A DNA stretch of 64,000 bases from Rubricoccus marinus (GTDB taxonomy: Bacteria > Bacteroidota > Rhodothermia > Rhodothermales > Rubricoccaceae): positions 3,235,119 through 3,299,118 of the forward strand of contig NZ_MQWB01000001.1 in the NCBI RefSeq assembly GCF_002257665.1, read 5' to 3'. Positions 2 through 46,284 of the stretch are shown in pieces. Both the position numbers and the translations under genes were made by a program. The notes under the pieces were generated by a model, which worked only from the letters and a program-made list of their open reading frames with translations, did no database searches and was not told the DNA's origin. Each line of letters starts with the position of its first letter. Positions within the stretch are counted from its first letter, which is position 1.

Positions 2-2371
2 GTCTTGAAGTCGGGCGCGGCGTACGTCCCGCTGGACCCCGGGTACCCGGCCTCGCGCCTCGCGTTCATGCTGGAAGACAGCGGCGCGCGCCTGGTCCTC
101 ACCGCGCACGGCCTCGCGCCTCTGGGAGATGTACCCACGCTCACCCTCGCGCCCGACGGCTCGCCTCTGGCGACGGAGGCTCAGTCCGCCGGGGGTGAAC
201 CGCGGGACGCAGCGCCAGAGGCCGCGTACGTCCTGTACACGTCAGGATCGACAGGTCAGCCCAAGGGGGTGATCGGGCTCCACCGCGGCATCGTCAACCG
301 TATCGGGTGGATGGAGGCGGCGTTCCCGTGGCGCGAGGGCGAGGTGGCGGTGCAAAAGACCGCGCTCTCGTTCGTGGACAGCGTGTGGGAAATCCTGGGG
401 CCTCTGGCGGCAGGCGTTCCCCTCCACGTCGTTCCGCCAGAGGCCGTGCGCGATCCGGCGGCGTTCGTGGACGCTCTGGCGGAAACAGGCGCCACGCGGG
501 TCGTCCTCGTGCCCTCGCTGCTCCGCGCGATCCTGGACCGCGCGCCGGACCTCGGCGAGCGCCTACCGCGCCTCACGCTCTGGACCGCCAGTGGCGAGCC
601 CCTCGCGGCAGACCTCGCCGCGCGCTTTGCCCGTGCGCACCCCACGGCAACGCTGCTCAACCTCTACGGATCGACGGAGGTCTCCGCCGATGTGACGGCG
701 CACGTCCTCGCGCCAGAAGCAGCACCGCCAGAGGCCTCTGGCGCGACGGTCCCCATCGGCCGCGCGATCTCGAACACGCAACTCGTCGTCGTGGACGGGT
801 ACGGCAATCCGGTCCCGGCGGGCGTGCCGGGCGAGCTCTTGGTCGGCGGCGCAGGCGTAGCGGGCGGCTACCACGCGCGGCCCGGCCTCAGCGCAGAGCG
901 CTTCGCGTCCAACCCGATCGCCTCAGGGCCGGTATTCCGCACCGGCGACCGAGTCGTTTCGGACGCCAGCGGCTCGCTGCGTTTCCTCGGCCGCGTGGAC
1001 CGGCAGGTCAAGGTCCGCGGCGTCCGTGTGGACCCGGCGGGGGTCGAGGCCGTTCTCAGTTCGCACCCCGACGTGAGCGCCTGCGCCGTCGTCCCGTTCT
1101 CGCGCGCGGACGCCGCGCCAGAGGCCCACGAGCTTGCGGCTTACGTGGTCCTCTGGCGCGGCGACACAGCTTCCGGCAGTACGACAGCAGGCTTGCGCGA
1201 CTTCCTCGCGTCCCAGCTTCCGTCCGCCGCCGTCCCGACCGCCGTGGTGCTCCTGGACGCGCTGCCGCAGCTTCCCAACGGCAAGCTGGACCGAGGCGCG
1301 CTGCCCGAGCCCCTGGCGGAGGTCACGCCAGAGGCCGCCTACGAAGCACCGCAGGGCGAGATGGAGAAGCGCCTTGCGTCGGTCTGGCAGGCGGCCCTCG
1401 GCGTGGAGCGCGTGGGGCGCCACGACGATTTCTTCGACCTCGGGGGACACTCCCTCCTAGCGGCGCAGATCGCCGTTCGAATTGAGGCCGAGTTGGGCGT
1501 CTCGTTCCCGCTCGTGACGTTTTTCCACGCCCCGACCGTCGCGCAGATCGCCGAGCGGCTGAGTGCCGAGACGGAATGGACGCCCCTCGTGGCTCTCCAA
1601 CCTGAAGGCGAGCGCCCCCCGCTGTTTTGCGTGCATAGCATGGCCGGGCACGTGCTTTCGTTCCGCGAGCTCGCCCATCGCCTCGGACCGGACCAGCCGT
1701 TTTATGGCATCGAGGCACGAGGCATCGACGGGCGCCAGAGGCTCGCGACCACCATTGAGGAGATGGCCGTGGACTACATCCGGGAGATTCGCAGCGTCCA
1801 GCCCGCAGGCCCGTATTACCTCGCGGGCTCCTCGTTTGGGGGCGCCGTCGCGTTCGAGATGGCGCAGCAATTACAGGCCTCTGGCGAGACCGTTGGGCTC
1901 CTCGCCCTACTAGACAGCCGGCCGCCTCTGGCGCAGTCCCGCCTGACCAAAGCGCGGCAGGTGGCGCGGCACGCGGGATGGCGCGCACGCGTCGAATGGC
2001 GGCGAGCGCGATCCGGCCCTGCGGCCTACGTCCGCGCAGGTGCTCAGCGCGCACGGCGCGTGGGAACGCGGGCACCTACCGTCCTCCGCGACACCTCACG
2101 GCCGGACGTGCACCGCCGGCTTATGACGGCCTGCCACGATGCGCTCATGGCGTACCGGGTGCGACCGTATCGCGGCAACACGGTCCTGTTCCGGACCGCG
2201 CCCGCATACGGGGTCCCCCTGGCGACCCAGTGGTCCGACGTGATCCCTGAGGGCCTGCGCATCTACCCGACCCCTGGAACGCACAACGACTTTCTAGAGC
2301 CCCCACACGTAGAGCCTCTGGCGAAGTGCCTGATGGAGGAACTCAAGGCGGCGCAGAACGGCGCGACGTGA
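2..2371 (+). CDS. non-ribosomal peptide synthetase, last module (A-PCP-TE), 5' end outside window
   Basis: The reading frame is open from the window edge, so the start lies upstream. Counting from base 5, an adenylation domain fills about residues 1-430: an AAYVPLDPGYP motif near the edge, the P-loop YTSGSTGQPKG at 78-88, NLYGSTE near 218, FRTGD near 310, and PNGKLDR near 424. A carrier domain follows at about 450-520 with the pantetheine serine in DLGGHSL. A type I thioesterase runs from about 530 to 788 with the nucleophile in GSSFGG near 608. Such a module activates one acid, holds it as a thioester and releases the finished peptide. The A4 region reads FVDSVWE where alpha-amino-acid domains usually have F-D-x-S-V-W-E, so the substrate may be unusual. 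The last bases overlap the transferase that would prime the carrier domain. Confidence 0.93.
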   Translation, partial: VLKSGAAYVPLDPGYPASRLAFMLEDSGARLVLTAHGLAPLGDVPTLTLAPDGSPLATEAQSAGGEPRDAAPEAAYVLYTSGSTGQPKGVIGLHRGIVNRIGWMEAAFPWREGEVAVQKTALSFVDSVWEILGPLAAGVPLHVVPPEAVRDPAAFVDALAETGATRVVLVPSLLRAILDRAPDLGERLPRLTLWTASGEPLAADLAARFARAHPTATLLNLYGSTEVSADVTAHVLAPEAAPPEASGATVPIGRAISNTQLVVVDGYGNPVPAGVPGELLVGGAGVAGGYHARPGLSAERFASNPIASGPVFRTGDRVVSDASGSLRFLGRVDRQVKVRGVRVDPAGVEAVLSSHPDVSACAVVPFSRADAAPEAHELAAYVVLWRGDTASGSTTAGLRDFLASQLPSAAVPTAVVLLDALPQLPNGKLDRGALPEPLAEVTPEAAYEAPQGEMEKRLASVWQAALGVERVGRHDDFFDLGGHSLLAAQIAVRIEAELGVSFPLVTFFHAPTVAQIAERLSAETEWTPLVALQPEGERPPLFCVHSMAGHVLSFRELAHRLGPDQPFYGIEARGIDGRQRLATTIEEMAVDYIREIRSVQPAGPYYLAGSSFGGAVAFEMAQQLQASGETVGLLALLDSRPPLAQSRLTKARQVARHAGWRARVEWRRARSGPAAYVRAGAQRARRVGTRAPTVLRDTSRPDVHRRLMTACHDALMAYRVRPYRGNTVLFRTAPAYGVPLATQWSDVIPEGLRIYPTPGTHNDFLEPPHVEPLAKCLMEELKAAQNGAT

Positions 2372-3036
2372 GCGCGCGGCCGGCCTCTGGCGAGGTTCAC
2401 GTGTGGACCATAGACCTCGCCAGAAGCGCACAAAGCGGCATTCTCAGCGCCGACGAAGAAGAGCAAGCCCGACGCTACCGCTTCGCGGCCGACGGGCGGC
2501 GCTTTACCGCGCGACGTTGTGCGCTCCGCCAGATCCTCGGCGCGGCACTCGGCATTGCGCCAGAGGCCATCGCCTTCCGTACGGATGCCTGGGGAAAGCC
2601 TGCGGTGACTTCTGGCGACGTGGGCTTCAACCTCACGCACGCAGGCGACCACGCGATGATTGCCGTCGCCAGAGGCCAGGCGGTCGGTGTAGACCTAGAG
2701 CGGCGCCGGCCGTGGGAGGAGGTCCGGGTTCTGTTGCCTGTCGTGTGCTCCCCGGCGGAGCAAGAGCTTTTGGCACTAGCTCACGCCCCGGCCGATCTAT
2801 TCGCACAGCTCTGGGTGTGGAAAGAGGCCGCGCTCAAGGCCTCTGGCGATGGGTTCTCGCGCGATCCACGAACCCTCGACGCGCTCGATGCTCGGGACGC
2901 GACCAAGCCGCTGTGGCGCGATGGCAATCGCCTCTGGCGCCTCCATCCTCTCGCGGCGCCAGAAGGGTATCGGGCGGCAGTCGCGGCACCGCCCGATGCG
3001 CACATCGTGCAGCGCGCGTGGCCGCCAGAGGCCTAA
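2368..3036 (+). CDS. Sfp-type 4'-phosphopantetheinyl transferase
   Basis: This enzyme transfers phosphopantetheine from coenzyme A to the carrier-domain serine of peptide or polyketide synthases. The family signatures are present: GVDLE near the middle (Mg2+-binding acidic residues) and W-V-W-K-E-A-A-L-K about 35 residues later. I chose the GTG at 2368 because it overlaps the upstream TGA by four bases and gives 222 residues, the usual length for Sfp. An in-frame ATG at 2326 would add 14 residues inside the upstream gene. Direct coupling to the peptide synthetase suggests a dedicated activator. Its stop overlaps the stop of the convergent DUF1641 gene, and there is no palindrome between them. 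Confidence 0.9.
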   Translation: MSARPASGEVHVWTIDLARSAQSGILSADEEEQARRYRFAADGRRFTARRCALRQILGAALGIAPEAIAFRTDAWGKPAVTSGDVGFNLTHAGDHAMIAVARGQAVGVDLERRRPWEEVRVLLPVVCSPAEQELLALAHAPADLFAQLWVWKEAALKASGDGFSRDPRTLDALDARDATKPLWRDGNRLWRLHPLAAPEGYRAAVAAPPDAHIVQRAWPPEA

Positions 3037-3521
3037 GGCTCGGCGCCGTCCTTGCCGTCGTGGCTGGAGTAGACCGGCGGCTGCGGATCGCTGAGCTGCG
3101 TCCCGAGCGTGCCGAGAAGCGTGAGCGCGGCGTCGAGCCCGCGGCGCACCTCGGGCTGTCGCAGCTTTTTGAGGACCGTCAGCGAGCCGGGCGCGTCGTC
3201 CTTTTCCTCCAGCCGCTCGCCGGCAGCCTCCAGCCCGCGGTCCAGCGCGACGACAAAGCGGTCCAGCCCGTCGGCGTCGATCCGGCCGAGGAGCTTGGCG
3301 AGGACGAGGAGGTTCGCGATCCCGTTGCGGCCCTCGTCGGTGTTGAGGCCGTCCAGCACGACCGCCATGACGTCTTGTAACTGCGCCAGAAGCCCGTTCA
3401 GCGTCCGCAGCGTGCCCGAGGTGTGGAGCGTTTCGAGCAGCCGCGCGAGGTCATCCGCAGCCGTGAACGTCTGCTGGCCGGGCGGCCCGGGCGGGTAGTC
3501 GTAGGTAATCGGGGAGGCCAT
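3033..3521 (-). CDS. DUF1641 protein, formate dehydrogenase partner
   Basis: A 162-residue soluble protein. The C-terminal part (about residues 70-150) has the leucine-rich pattern of DUF1641: a GLD-type segment, then the L-x-K-L-R-Q-P-E-V-R-R-G-L-D motif and a final L-L-x-x-L-G. DUF1641 genes, such as Bacillus yrhD, commonly sit next to a cytosolic formate dehydrogenase alpha subunit, as here. The molecular role is not established; I infer an accessory or assembly subunit. The gene is 244 bases downstream of fdhA on the same strand, and that gap is full of repeats. Its ATG is preceded by a tract of short GTCCC-type units rather than a ribosome binding site. Confidence 0.85.
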   Translation of the reverse strand: MASPITYDYPPGPPGQQTFTAADDLARLLETLHTSGTLRTLNGLLAQLQDVMAVVLDGLNTDEGRNGIANLLVLAKLLGRIDADGLDRFVVALDRGLEAAGERLEEKDDAPGSLTVLKKLRQPEVRRGLDAALTLLGTLGTQLSDPQPPVYSSHDGKDGAEP

Positions 3522-3765
3522 CGCGGGAAGGGACTAGGGACGTGGGGCTGGGGACTTGCGGCGCCTCTGGCGAGAGCGCGGCGCCAGAGGCTACAGCCCT
3601 GAGACGAGTGTCGCTGGACCCCGCAGGGTAGACAGAGGCAGCGCGAGCGAAGCGGTCTGGTGGGTTCAAGCTCGGCGTCGCGAGATCGCCGCGCTTCGCT
3701 CGCGATGACACCGGTTGGGGGAGAGAGGACGGAGCTCAGGCTTCTGGCGCCAGAGGCGCCGCGGG
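3522..3765. repeat. repeat-filled gap between fdhA and the DUF1641 gene
   Basis: No gene is visible. At 3525-3560 lies a quasi-periodic tract that reads, on the minus strand, as repeated AGTCCC/CGTCCC units ending at the DUF1641 ATG. CCTCTGGCG (3564-3572) and CGCCAGAGG (3582-3590) form an inverted pair with a 9-base spacer. From about 3600 to 3720 is a long imperfect inverted element of the GAGCGAAGCG type. A variant palindrome, CTTCTGGCGCCAGAGGC, sits at 3741-3757, just after the fdhA stop. Confidence 0.8.
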
Positions 3766-6700
3766 CTAGGTCTGGCTCTGCGTGTACCCGACGGGCGGGC
3801 GCTGGATGACGGGAAGCTCGTAGTCCGGCCGGTCCCACTTCCGCTGCACCTCCACGCCGTCCTGCGGGGTGGGGGTGCCGTAGCGGTGGTGCGTGAGCTT
3901 GATGGGCCTCTTGCGGCGCTCGCCGGTTGGCGGGCCGTCTAGCTTGACCATCTTGACCGCTAGCTCCTTGTAAGCGGGCGTGTGGCTGTCCGGGTCCACC
4001 ACGCTCGACGTGAGGTAGTTGACGGCGTGCTCGGCCGACGACAGCGGCATGTACAGTTCGTTGTCGCGCACCTGATCGCTTACGAGCACCTGCGCCTTGA
4101 CGGCGCCGCGCCGCGAGATGAGCCGCACCCAATCGCCGGTGTCCAGGCCTCTGGCGCTCGCCAGAGGCTCGGCGACCTCGACGTAGGTGCCGGGCACGAT
4201 GGAGTTGAGCCCGGCCGACTTGTGCGTCTGGTTGCCGACGTGGAAGTGCTCCAGGTTGCGGCCCGTGTTGAGGTGCAGGTCGTACTCGTCGTCGGGCTGG
4301 TCGCTGGGCTCGGTCCATTCCAGCGGGTAGAGCCGCGCCTTGCCTTCGGGGAGGTGGAACTCCTCGGTGTAGAGGAGCGGCGTGTCGGTCCCGTCTTCGG
4401 CGACGGGCCAGCAGAGGCTTTTGTAGCCCGCGAGGCGCGCGTAATTGACGCCCGCGAAAAGAGGCGTCGTGGCGGCGACCTCGTCCATGATGTCGCTCGG
4501 GTGCGTGTAGCCCCAGTCGTGGCCCAGGCGCTTCGCGAGGTCGGTCAGGATCTCCCAGTCGGGACGCGACTCCGCCAGAGGCTCCATCGCGCGGTACAGC
4601 CGCTGGATGCGGCGCTCTGTGTTGACGAATGTGCCGTCTTTCTCCAGGCTGGGCGAGGCGGCGAGGACCACGTCGGCGAACTCGGCGGACTTGGAGAAAA
4701 AGATCTCCTGGACGCAGAAGAAGTCCAGCTTGCTCAGCGCGTCTTGCACGTGGTGCGCGTCGGCGTCCACGAGCGCGATCTCCTCGCCGACGAGGAAGAG
4801 CGCCTTAAGCGAGCCCTCGTGGATGGCGTCGATCATCTCGCGGTTGTCCAGGCCCTTTTTGGCGCTCAGGCTCACGCCCCAGGCGTGCTCGTAGGTCTTG
4901 CGGGCCTCGTCGTCCTCCACCTTCTGGTAGCCGGGGAAGTACGTGTTGATCGACCCAAAGTCCGAGCAGCCTTGCACGTTGTTGTGGCCGCGGAGCGGGT
5001 AGCCGCCGGTCCCCGGCTTGCCGAAGTTGCCGGTCGCGAGGAGCAGGTTGGAGATCGCCGTGCTCGTGTCCGACCCCATCTTATGCTGCGTGACGCCCAT
5101 CGCCCAGAGTGCGCAGACCGTTTCGGCGTGCGAGATCTGGTAGGCCGCGTCGCGCAGGGCCTCTGGCGAGAGGCCGGTCCGCTCGGCCGCGAACTCCAGC
5201 GTGAACGGCTCCAGGCTCTCGCGGTAGACGCTCTCGTGGTTCACCCACTGATCGAGAAAGGCGCGGTCCTCCCAGCCCTGATCAAAGATGTGCCGGGCGA
5301 CGGCGCTGAGCCAGATGAGGTCCGTTCCCGGCTTCGGTTGCAGAAAGAGGTCGGCGCGCTGGGCCGTGAGGTGCGAGCGGATATCGGCGACGATGTGCGT
5401 CTGGCCGCGCTTCTTTTGCGCCGCGCGGAGGTGCGCCGCGAGGACAGGGTGCGATTGGTCCGTGTTGGTCCCCACCATCAGCACCAGATCCGCAGCGCGG
5501 ATGTCGTCCATCGTGCCCGCGTCGCCGCCGTAGCCGACGGTCCGCCAGAGGCCCATCGTGGCGGGCGCCTGGCAGTAGCGGGAGCAGTTGTCCACGTTGT
5601 TCGTCCCGAAGACGGCGCGGGCCATCTTCTGCACGAGGTAGCTCTCCTCGTTGGTGGCCTTGCTGGAGGCGATAAACGCGACGCTGTCCGGCCCGTGCTC
5701 GTCGGCGATCGCGCGCATCCGCCGGGCGACCGTATCGAGCGCCTCGTCCCAGGTGGCCTCGCGGAAGGTCTCGGCCTCTGGCGAGGCGGGTACAGGGTGC
5801 GGGGTACCGGGTACATCGCCAGAGGCCTCTGGCGCCGACCCGTACCCCGTACCTCGTACCCCGTACCCCATTCCGCCAGAGTCACTCCGGATTAGCGGCG
5901 TGCGCAGGCGCTCGGGAGCGTTGACGAAGTCCCAGCCGAACTTGCCCTTGACGCACGTCGAGATGCCGTTGGCGGGGCCGTCGTGCGGCTCGATTTTGAG
6001 GATGCGGCGCTCGCGCGTCCACACGTCGAAGGCGCAGCCGACGCCGCAGTAGGTGCAGACCGTTTTGGTCTTCTGGACCGAGGCCTCGCGCATTTTCGCC
6101 TCGGCGTCGCTGAGCCCGAAGATGGGCTTGTTGCCGATAAACGGCTCGACGGCCTTGACCACGTCCACGGCGGGCTCGAAGACGTCGCGCTTGAGGTTCG
6201 TGAAGTGGCCTGCTTGGCCCATCATGGTCTTTTCCATGAGTGCGTTGCAGGGGCAGACCGTGACGCAGTGCCCGCAGCTCACGCACGAGGACTCGCCGGC
6301 CGGCGCGCCGCCGTCCCAGAGCACGCGCGGCACGTCCAGGTCCCACCCGATGCTGAGCGTTTCGGTCACCTGCACCTCTTGGCAAGCCTCGACGCACTTG
6401 CCGCAGAGGATGCACTGCGTGGGGTCGTACTGGTAGAACGGGTGGCTCGCGTCGATGTCGTACGGCTTGGGCTCGAACTCGTAGCGGAGGTGGTCGATCT
6501 CGACATGCTTGGTCGCGTTGTGGACCTCGCAGTCTCCGTTGTTCCGGTCGCAGACCGTGCAGTAGAGGTTGTGGTGGCCCAGGATGCGGTGCATCCCCTC
6601 CTCTCGGGCGTCGGCGGCCTCTGGCGCGAGGGTGTCGACGGTCATCCCGTTGTAGACTGGGACGGCGCAGGCGCGCGCGAGCTCGCCGTCGGCACGGACC

Positions 6701-6963
6701 CAGCAGGTGTCGCAGGTCTGGATGGGGCCGAGCGCGGGGTCGAAGCAGACGTGCGGCACGCTCACGCCGCCGGGCGCCCCGCTCATCGCCAGAGGCTCGC
6801 CGCGCTCGGCGTCGACCCGGTCGAGCAAGCCCGCCAGCCACTCGCCGTCGCGGCCCTCGACGGTCTGGCCGTTCACGACGAGCGTGACGGGCCGGAGCGT
6901 GGCGCCAGAGGCGTGTCCGTTGTGGGCCTGTGGCCCGGGTCTCTGGATGGGAGGGCGTTGCAT
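3766..6963 (-). CDS. fdhA: formate dehydrogenase alpha subunit, NuoG-like N-terminus, Cys-type
   Basis: The product oxidises formate to CO2 at a molybdenum or tungsten bis-pterin guanine dinucleotide centre. In order it shows a 2Fe-2S ferredoxin-like region (Cys 73, 84, 87, 99), a His/Cys cluster region at about 130-145, two 4Fe-4S motifs (184-194 and 227-237), the catalytic-domain iron-sulfur motif CTYCGVGC (303-310), and N-C-S-R-Y-C-Q-A-P-A-T around Cys464, the likely metal ligand. The ligand is cysteine, so no selenocysteine recoding is needed. At 1065 residues it is longer than usual, partly because of a repeat-encoded insertion at about residues 359-400. No beta or gamma subunit is adjacent, which fits a soluble enzyme like Bacillus YrhE. 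The partner gene is the DUF1641 gene downstream. Confidence 0.93.
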   Translation of the reverse strand: MQRPPIQRPGPQAHNGHASGATLRPVTLVVNGQTVEGRDGEWLAGLLDRVDAERGEPLAMSGAPGGVSVPHVCFDPALGPIQTCDTCWVRADGELARACAVPVYNGMTVDTLAPEAADAREEGMHRILGHHNLYCTVCDRNNGDCEVHNATKHVEIDHLRYEFEPKPYDIDASHPFYQYDPTQCILCGKCVEACQEVQVTETLSIGWDLDVPRVLWDGGAPAGESSCVSCGHCVTVCPCNALMEKTMMGQAGHFTNLKRDVFEPAVDVVKAVEPFIGNKPIFGLSDAEAKMREASVQKTKTVCTYCGVGCAFDVWTRERRILKIEPHDGPANGISTCVKGKFGWDFVNAPERLRTPLIRSDSGGMGYGVRGTGYGSAPEASGDVPGTPHPVPASPEAETFREATWDEALDTVARRMRAIADEHGPDSVAFIASSKATNEESYLVQKMARAVFGTNNVDNCSRYCQAPATMGLWRTVGYGGDAGTMDDIRAADLVLMVGTNTDQSHPVLAAHLRAAQKKRGQTHIVADIRSHLTAQRADLFLQPKPGTDLIWLSAVARHIFDQGWEDRAFLDQWVNHESVYRESLEPFTLEFAAERTGLSPEALRDAAYQISHAETVCALWAMGVTQHKMGSDTSTAISNLLLATGNFGKPGTGGYPLRGHNNVQGCSDFGSINTYFPGYQKVEDDEARKTYEHAWGVSLSAKKGLDNREMIDAIHEGSLKALFLVGEEIALVDADAHHVQDALSKLDFFCVQEIFFSKSAEFADVVLAASPSLEKDGTFVNTERRIQRLYRAMEPLAESRPDWEILTDLAKRLGHDWGYTHPSDIMDEVAATTPLFAGVNYARLAGYKSLCWPVAEDGTDTPLLYTEEFHLPEGKARLYPLEWTEPSDQPDDEYDLHLNTGRNLEHFHVGNQTHKSAGLNSIVPGTYVEVAEPLASARGLDTGDWVRLISRRGAVKAQVLVSDQVRDNELYMPLSSAEHAVNYLTSSVVDPDSHTPAYKELAVKMVKLDGPPTGERRKRPIKLTHHRYGTPTPQDGVEVQRKWDRPDYELPVIQRPPVGYTQSQT
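5764..5889 (-). repeat. repeat-derived insertion inside fdhA
   Basis: About 40 codons are inserted between the conserved R-x-R-T-P-L-I-R segment and E-A-T-W-D-E-A-L-D, which are nearly adjacent in related enzymes. The DNA has units of GTACCCC/GTACC type on both sides (about 5795-5816 and 5840-5872). They flank a head-to-head copy of the motif, CGCCAGAGGCCTCTGGCG, at 5817-5834. The frame stays open through the element, so it is translated as a Gly/Pro/Ser-rich loop. Confidence 0.75.
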
Positions 6964-8169: not shown

Positions 8170-8186
8170 GCCTCTGGCGCCAGAGG
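8170..8186. repeat. palindrome at convergent junction, probable bidirectional terminator
   Basis: GCCTCTGGCGCCAGAGG, lacking only the last base of the 18-base form. It fills the whole gap between the two convergent stop codons. A stem of seven pairs with a GCGC loop can form on either transcript. Confidence 0.85.
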
Positions 8187-14072: not shown

Positions 14073-14090
14073 GCCTCTGGCGCCAGAGGC
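14073..14090. repeat. palindrome at convergent junction mreD/dapD
   Basis: GCCTCTGGCGCCAGAGGC, ten bases after the mreD stop and twenty before the dapD stop. Probable bidirectional terminator. Confidence 0.95.
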
Positions 14091-25588: not shown

Positions 25589-25606
25589 GCCTCTGGCGCC
25601 AGAGGC
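25589..25606. repeat. palindrome at convergent junction MscS/permease
   Basis: GCCTCTGGCGCCAGAGGC immediately after the TAG of the channel gene. Probable bidirectional terminator. A further single copy follows at 25627-25635, next to the permease stop. Confidence 0.95.

Positions 25607-44239: not shown

Positions 44240-46284
<2,045 letters not shown>

Follow-up and report, generated by a model that had tools for sequence, protein, structure and literature searches.

How does a conserved enzyme come to carry a stretch of repetitive DNA within its coding sequence while its fold stays unchanged? The question is raised by an fdhA-like gene in a 64-kb window of the Rubricoccus marinus genome (64,000 nucleotides, the whole stretch of DNA analysed). 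The gene (3766..6963, minus strand; identified by its ORF, phmmer and Foldseek) encodes a 1065-aa FdhA homologue composed of an N-terminal 2Fe-2S/4Fe-4S ferredoxin-like part and a Mo-bisPGD formate dehydrogenase part. The nearest solved protein found by phmmer is B. subtilis YjgC (ForC1/ForCE1), and Foldseek aligns an AlphaFold2 model of the product with ForCE1 at a TM-score of 0.97 by target length.

An in-frame insertion in FdhA

The ORF reads without a stop codon through positions 5764-5889, the span to which the original prediction had assigned a repeat-derived insertion, and here encodes 40 residues, SDSGGMGYGVRGTGYGSAPEASGDVPGTPHPVPASPEAET, between the conserved segments ‘RTPLIR’ and ‘FREATWDEA’. 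Comparison with homologues places the added DNA slightly inside that span, at 5777..5881 on the minus strand (~105 nt, residues ~361-395, limits ± a few nt). The residues are rich in Gly, Pro and Ser as predicted (9, 6 and 5, respectively) and not in Tyr, of which there are only 2. In the phmmer alignment, residue 339 of the YjgC chain pairs with both query residues 360 and 396, the signature of a clean insertion; because the join 360|396 falls over a single YjgC residue, ~35 residues were gained and none lost. That an extra segment splits conserved FdhA motifs in frame is borne out by this join and by the alignment of homologues, in which the interval between the two motifs is 4 aa in genomes G017 and G003, 9 aa in G004, G006 and G008, and 19 aa in the family relative G007; it measures 4-9 aa in every homologue of at least 52% identity where it is measurable. 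The ~105-nt segment is thus, as judged from these alignments, an in-frame insertion in fdhA. A close fdhA orthologue was not found in G001, the sole same-genus genome, and the nearest empty site is therefore that of another genus. Against the empty site of G017, from another genus, no target-site duplication is visible in fdhA, nor did the copies reveal a mobile unit of constant ends.

Structural modelling agrees with the original prediction of an added loop. AlphaFold2 (26 homologues) places the insert between two confident strands, residues 357-359 and 400-402, and gives pLDDT values of 25-47 in blocks over residues 361-400, with values below 50 at 362-397. The insert in FdhA is accordingly modelled as a disordered loop of ~35 aa, and its effect on the enzyme is probably neutral. 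At the same site, more distant FdhAs (~35% identity) carry loops that are unrelated in sequence and 11-78 aa long, so that the linker ranges from 4 to 78 aa over all homologues compared, and no homologue has the same loop encoded by unrelated DNA. The long loops of these distant enzymes would be expected if the segment had been selected as a peptide, for example for contact with a partner subunit. We regard such a protein role as very improbable: the insert is predicted to be disordered, it is unrelated to the other loops, its composition follows from reading the repeat in frame, and peptides of the same type (GTGYEVQGTG, VPGT) are common to the unrelated products of hisF, trpG and a permease (see below).

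Anatomy and folding of the insert

The inserted DNA is one quasi-palindrome, in which outer decamers enclose two inverted arms of heptads and a central decamer pair. On the plus strand, an outer decamer GCCTCTGGCG (5774..5783, plus), located by motif position and forming the 3′ side of the outer stem on the gene strand, precedes a heptad arm of four units, GGTACAG-GGTGCGG-GGTACCG-GGTAC (5789..5814, plus; motif matches), which is the C-rich arm of the gene strand. The apex is an inverted decamer pair, CGCCAGAGG|CCTCTGGCG (5817..5834, assigned to neither strand; motif positions), which encodes APEASG; its presence between the arms confirms the predicted arrangement of inverted units around a head-to-head motif pair. 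There follow a second arm, GTACCCC-GTACCTC-GTACCCC-GTACCCC (5842..5869, plus; motif matches), which is the G-rich arm of the gene strand, and an imperfect decamer copy recognised from its sequence, CTCTGGCG on the gene strand (5874..5881, minus), which completes the outer stem. All five features also have their place in the predicted fold. Read along the gene, the order is imperfect decamer CTCTGGCGG, G-rich arm GGGGTAC-GGGGTAC-GAGGTAC-GGGGTAC, central pair, C-rich arm GTACCCG-GTACCCC-GCACCCT-GTACCCG and decamer CGCCAGAGGC. The two arms have the GGTAC core in common and differ at the NN positions.

The insert strand is predicted to form a single extended hairpin, with a folding energy of -73.7 kcal/mol and a z-score of -5.2 relative to dinucleotide shuffles; it ranks ninth in stability among the 1,065 windows of this size (126 nt) taken across the 64 kb. 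All seven matches to the heptad unit GTACCCCGTACC at up to two mismatches in the 64-kb window lie within 5789-5874, with 3.0 ± 1.7 expected window-wide, and three perfect decamer cores occur in 126 nt of fdhA, against eight in the other 3,072 nt of the gene.

The decamer is a separate genome-wide word

The two components of the insert have different distributions. The decamer GCCTCTGGCG is present in 14,176 copies in the genome (control 61), about 3 per kb, and is not enriched in the same-genus G001 (99 against a control of 101). Variants with one mismatch are scarce, each occurring 1-99 times in 304 kb that contain 1,064 exact copies, and the density of the decamer is 2.6 times higher outside genes. 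Head-to-head pairs, CCTCTGGCGCCAGAGG, lie between genes, for instance at 8171-8186, 14074-14089 and 25590-25605; 21 of 86 such pairs are located between convergent genes, as against 2.6% of random positions, and 40 of the 86 fall within 40 nt of a predicted stop codon. Relatives over-represent other words, GCTGGCGG in G001 and G007 and GCCGAGGCGG in G004 and G006. The decamers do not appear to be relics of those words, which are carried by 12-14% of the R. marinus sites against 2-3% of random positions; because the share is this low, most decamer sites are new. A ComEC-type protein (PF03772) is present in each of five family genomes tested; proteins of this type are common in bacteria.

Of 74 decamers alignable with G001, 53 are ungapped, from which we infer that the word is mostly created by substitution. 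As an inserting unit it is therefore mostly rejected, despite the 28% of decamers that touch a gap (9% of all positions do so) and an approximately fourfold enrichment beside insertions of R. marinus's own lineage. In mnmG, an extra in-frame segment relative to G001 (~45452-45540) contains three decamers and no heptads. The claim that the repeat unit of fdhA differs from that of mnmG consequently stands for the heptads, which only fdhA has, and fails for the decamers, which both genes contain. The broader suggestion that genes here receive insertions from more than one element family is not supported in that form: most decamers arise by substitution, and neither a target-site duplication nor a fixed-end unit was seen. 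The decamer is a separate, genome-wide iterated word that forms part of the fdhA insert and is not the inserted family.

Heptad arrays are enriched near start codons

The heptads are a dispersed repeat of R. marinus and its family, as the predicted repeat origin of the insert implied. The genome contains 38 exact copies of GTACCCCGTACC (reversed control 1), and arrays, defined as at least three GGTACNN/GTACCNN-type units with one transition allowed, occur at 29 places; statements about the whole genome rely on pattern searches, the loci of the arrays and a sample of 304 kb. Within that sample, the fdhA insert is the sole heptad array found. By our gene calls, which derive from our own codon-usage model and leave starts uncertain, 11 of the 29 places have a predicted start codon no more than 20 nt away (expectation 2.3%, p 2e-11). 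Only three are inside genes, where 77% would be expected, namely in fdhA, hisF and a gene for an FtsX-type permease, and one further array forms the end of trpG, so that the known intragenic copies number only 3-4.

The usual leader layout is a stop codon, (GGTACNN)n, a loop, (GTACCNN)n, 2 to 11 nt and ATG. Leader arrays are often inverted pairs of uniform polarity, in which the G-rich arm precedes the C-rich one and the latter lies beside the ATG, likewise in G004 and G006, and the fdhA copy has this same polarity. Six other elements were folded: five of them (four leaders and the permease insert) reach z -4.1 to -6.3, and one leader, L071, folds at only z -1.1. De novo scans of four relatives found heptad arrays abutting start codons in each, built from different units (GGGGAGT, GAGGCGT, CCCCGCT, GGGGTTC and GGGGACT).

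The shared architecture and polarity, the very stable predicted hairpin and its placement at a domain boundary could indicate a working RNA element in fdhA, one that makes ribosomes pause between domains or governs the level of expression, a role also conceivable for the leader copies. We consider this quite unlikely. The hairpin is missing from all close homologues, the role of the leader copies is itself only putative, and the first ATG in fdhA lies ~65 nt downstream of the C-rich arm; with no start codon close behind that arm, internal initiation of the kind seen in leaders is not expected. The same distance, together with the continuous gene of the relatives, led us to reject a fusion of two former genes with a leader between them.

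Several other identities for the heptads were considered. An Rfam search of 18 array loci returned a single TPP riboswitch, ~1 kb from an array, and a known structured RNA was rejected. By sequence, GGGGTAC arrays qualify as candidate G-quadruplexes and GTACTCG and GTACCTC arrays do not; because the GTAC core is kept while the G-runs are not, a quadruplex is not the general denominator. A phylum-wide trait was likewise rejected, the three-unit pattern (GTACCNC units only) being found in 7 of 394 genomes. GTACCAC heptads are abundant in G048 (30 matches) and G052 (23), which belong to other families of the same phylum, a sporadic spread.

Approximately six arrays (L075, L064, L065, L067, L068 and L070) have a longer leader in common, GAATCCTCTGGCGCCAGAGGCG...GACAGCTTTACCCAGTACCC / ...GAATCCTCTGGCGCCAGAGGCGAGCGCGGGACAGCTTTACCCAGTACCC..., with homogeneous GTACCCA or GTACTCG units. 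This longer repeat is separate, dispersed and intergenic, and has no Rfam match.

Intragenic copies vary between lineages

The permease insert is a full hairpin (z -6.3). At the orthologous site in relatives (L271-L276), the heptad cores differ: GGTAC in R. marinus, GGTTC (GTTCCG heptads) in G001, GGTCC in G007 and GGCAC in G006, with an unrelated stretch in G004 and nearly nothing in G008. Different cores at one site in four related genomes suggest that heptads grow and turn over locally rather than arriving with a jumping element. The segments of G001, G006 and G007 fold no better than shuffles (z -1.3, -0.8 and +1.3), so that an old, maintained hairpin at this site is not proven. In hisF, a single G-rich arm occupies a loop that aligns 138|170 to 132|139 of a solved HisF; a long loop is already present in the G001 orthologue, without heptads and 6-7 residues shorter, and the heptads were added in the lineage of R. 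marinus. The end of trpG likewise consists of heptad-coded residues.

Most known palindromes that encode protein segments come from Rickettsia and Wolbachia and have been interpreted as selfish mobile DNA. On that model, a mobile palindrome of the MITE type or like the Rickettsia palindromic elements (RPEs), with the decamer as its terminal inverted repeat, might have transposed whole into fdhA, hisF and the permease gene. Its expected features are in part present, in that a segment of ~105 nt with a long stem-loop lies in frame in conserved proteins, copies occur in spacers too, and the fdhA insert ends in inverted decamer copies. Those ends are weak evidence, however, because decamers occur throughout the genome at about 3 per kb. 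The copies, moreover, have only the heptad core and period in common and differ in their ends and element sequence, hisF has one arm only, the orthologous permease sites have different cores, and target duplication is not visible against G017. On balance, transposition of such an element seems unlikely.

Proposed origin of the insert

We favor, as a reasonably likely account, an intragenic copy of the family's paired heptad repeat that grew locally and is tolerated as a floppy loop. What is directly supported is that fdhA contains an insertion with this unit structure and a predicted hairpin, that copies are dispersed in leaders, and that the permease heptads are lineage-specific. Heptad hairpins usually occupy the gap immediately ahead of a start codon, and the fdhA copy would be of the same kind, with its polarity kept. 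It lies in a turn that connects the Fe4S4 and molybdopterin parts, at a position of widely differing length among FdhAs. The seed may have been a short palindrome already present in this tolerant turn, enlarged locally by replication slippage of heptads, and template switching from arm to arm could have copied one arm into the other. In all frames GTACNNN units are free of stop codons, save where NNN itself creates one, so a copy of a length divisible by three would be translated as a floppy, tolerated loop. In G007, the fdhA loop at the same site is a short inverted repeat, CCGCCGCTGGCG/CGCCAGCGGCGG, built from that genome's own frequent word; together with the permease site cores, this repeat points to local growth.

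A bolder extension, which we hold to be possible but doubtful, is that each species of this family keeps its own iterated word genome-wide, as a dialect in the manner of uptake sequences, and that short palindromes of this word at tolerant loops seed hairpins that grow lineage-specific heptads. Conserved enzymes might then keep acquiring in-frame segments by slippage and template switching, without a transposase.

Comparison with known repeat systems

The density of the decamer recalls HIP1 of cyanobacteria (PMC4390886), and its replacement by other words among relatives recalls the uptake-sequence dialects of Neisseriaceae (PMC3630211); by analogy with both, it is very abundant and its point variants are rare. 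Inverted pairs near gene ends also resemble uptake-sequence terminators. Unlike HIP1, the decamer is not a palindrome, and its 14,176 copies far exceed the quoted uptake-sequence counts of 943-4,265.

RPE-like coding palindromes (PMC2229807) and the inserts described here are both 105-146 bp long, form a long stem-loop, lie in frame in conserved proteins and are apparently tolerated. A long in-frame palindrome in a conserved protein is found in fdhA and in the permease gene, and one arm in hisF. An RPE can be recognised by its element sequence and has terminal repeats of 12 bp, whereas the copies here show neither one conserved sequence nor constant inverted repeats at their ends and share only the heptad core and period. 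Target-site duplication is marked as unknown for RPEs in the review (PMC2229807).

The closest parallels to the heptads are the G-rich heptameric repeats GGGAATC of Xanthomonas and GGGGA(C/T)T of Nostoc (Rehm et al. 2015, PMC4692102). They share the heptad period, the position just upstream of ORFs, a C-rich sense strand and depletion in coding regions. Xanthomonas genomes hold 70-75 inverted heptad pairs each, with stem-loops possible (PMC4692102), and the inverted pairs here are likewise able to form stem-loops, as predicted by folding; the relative G004 even has GGGGACT arrays at a start codon, like the Nostoc unit. In contrast to those repeats, the heptads of R. marinus have a GGTAC core with a variable NN, so that in many GGTACNN arrays the four runs of G needed for a quadruplex are missing. 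The TAACTGA direct repeats of Beggiatoaceae, Cyanobacteria and some Bacteroidetes (MacGregor 2015, PMC4679880) are also heptads located within several nt upstream of start codons and rarely within ORFs. Their unit is unrelated, however, and forward TAACTGA repeats place stops in all three frames, whereas GTACNNN is nearly always open; inverted pairing, frequent in the GGTACNN arrays, is rare among them (one indirect repeat reported, PMC4679880).

Paired heptameric repeats upstream of genes are thus known, and what is new here, relative to Xanthomonas and Nostoc, is the in-frame intragenic hairpin copies in conserved enzymes and a core that varies between lineages at an orthologous site. A slippage-prone heptad repeat has entered conserved enzymes in frame, with one orthologous site bearing different cores in four genomes, and a comparison of strains could test whether new protein segments grow in place from short hairpins without transposition.
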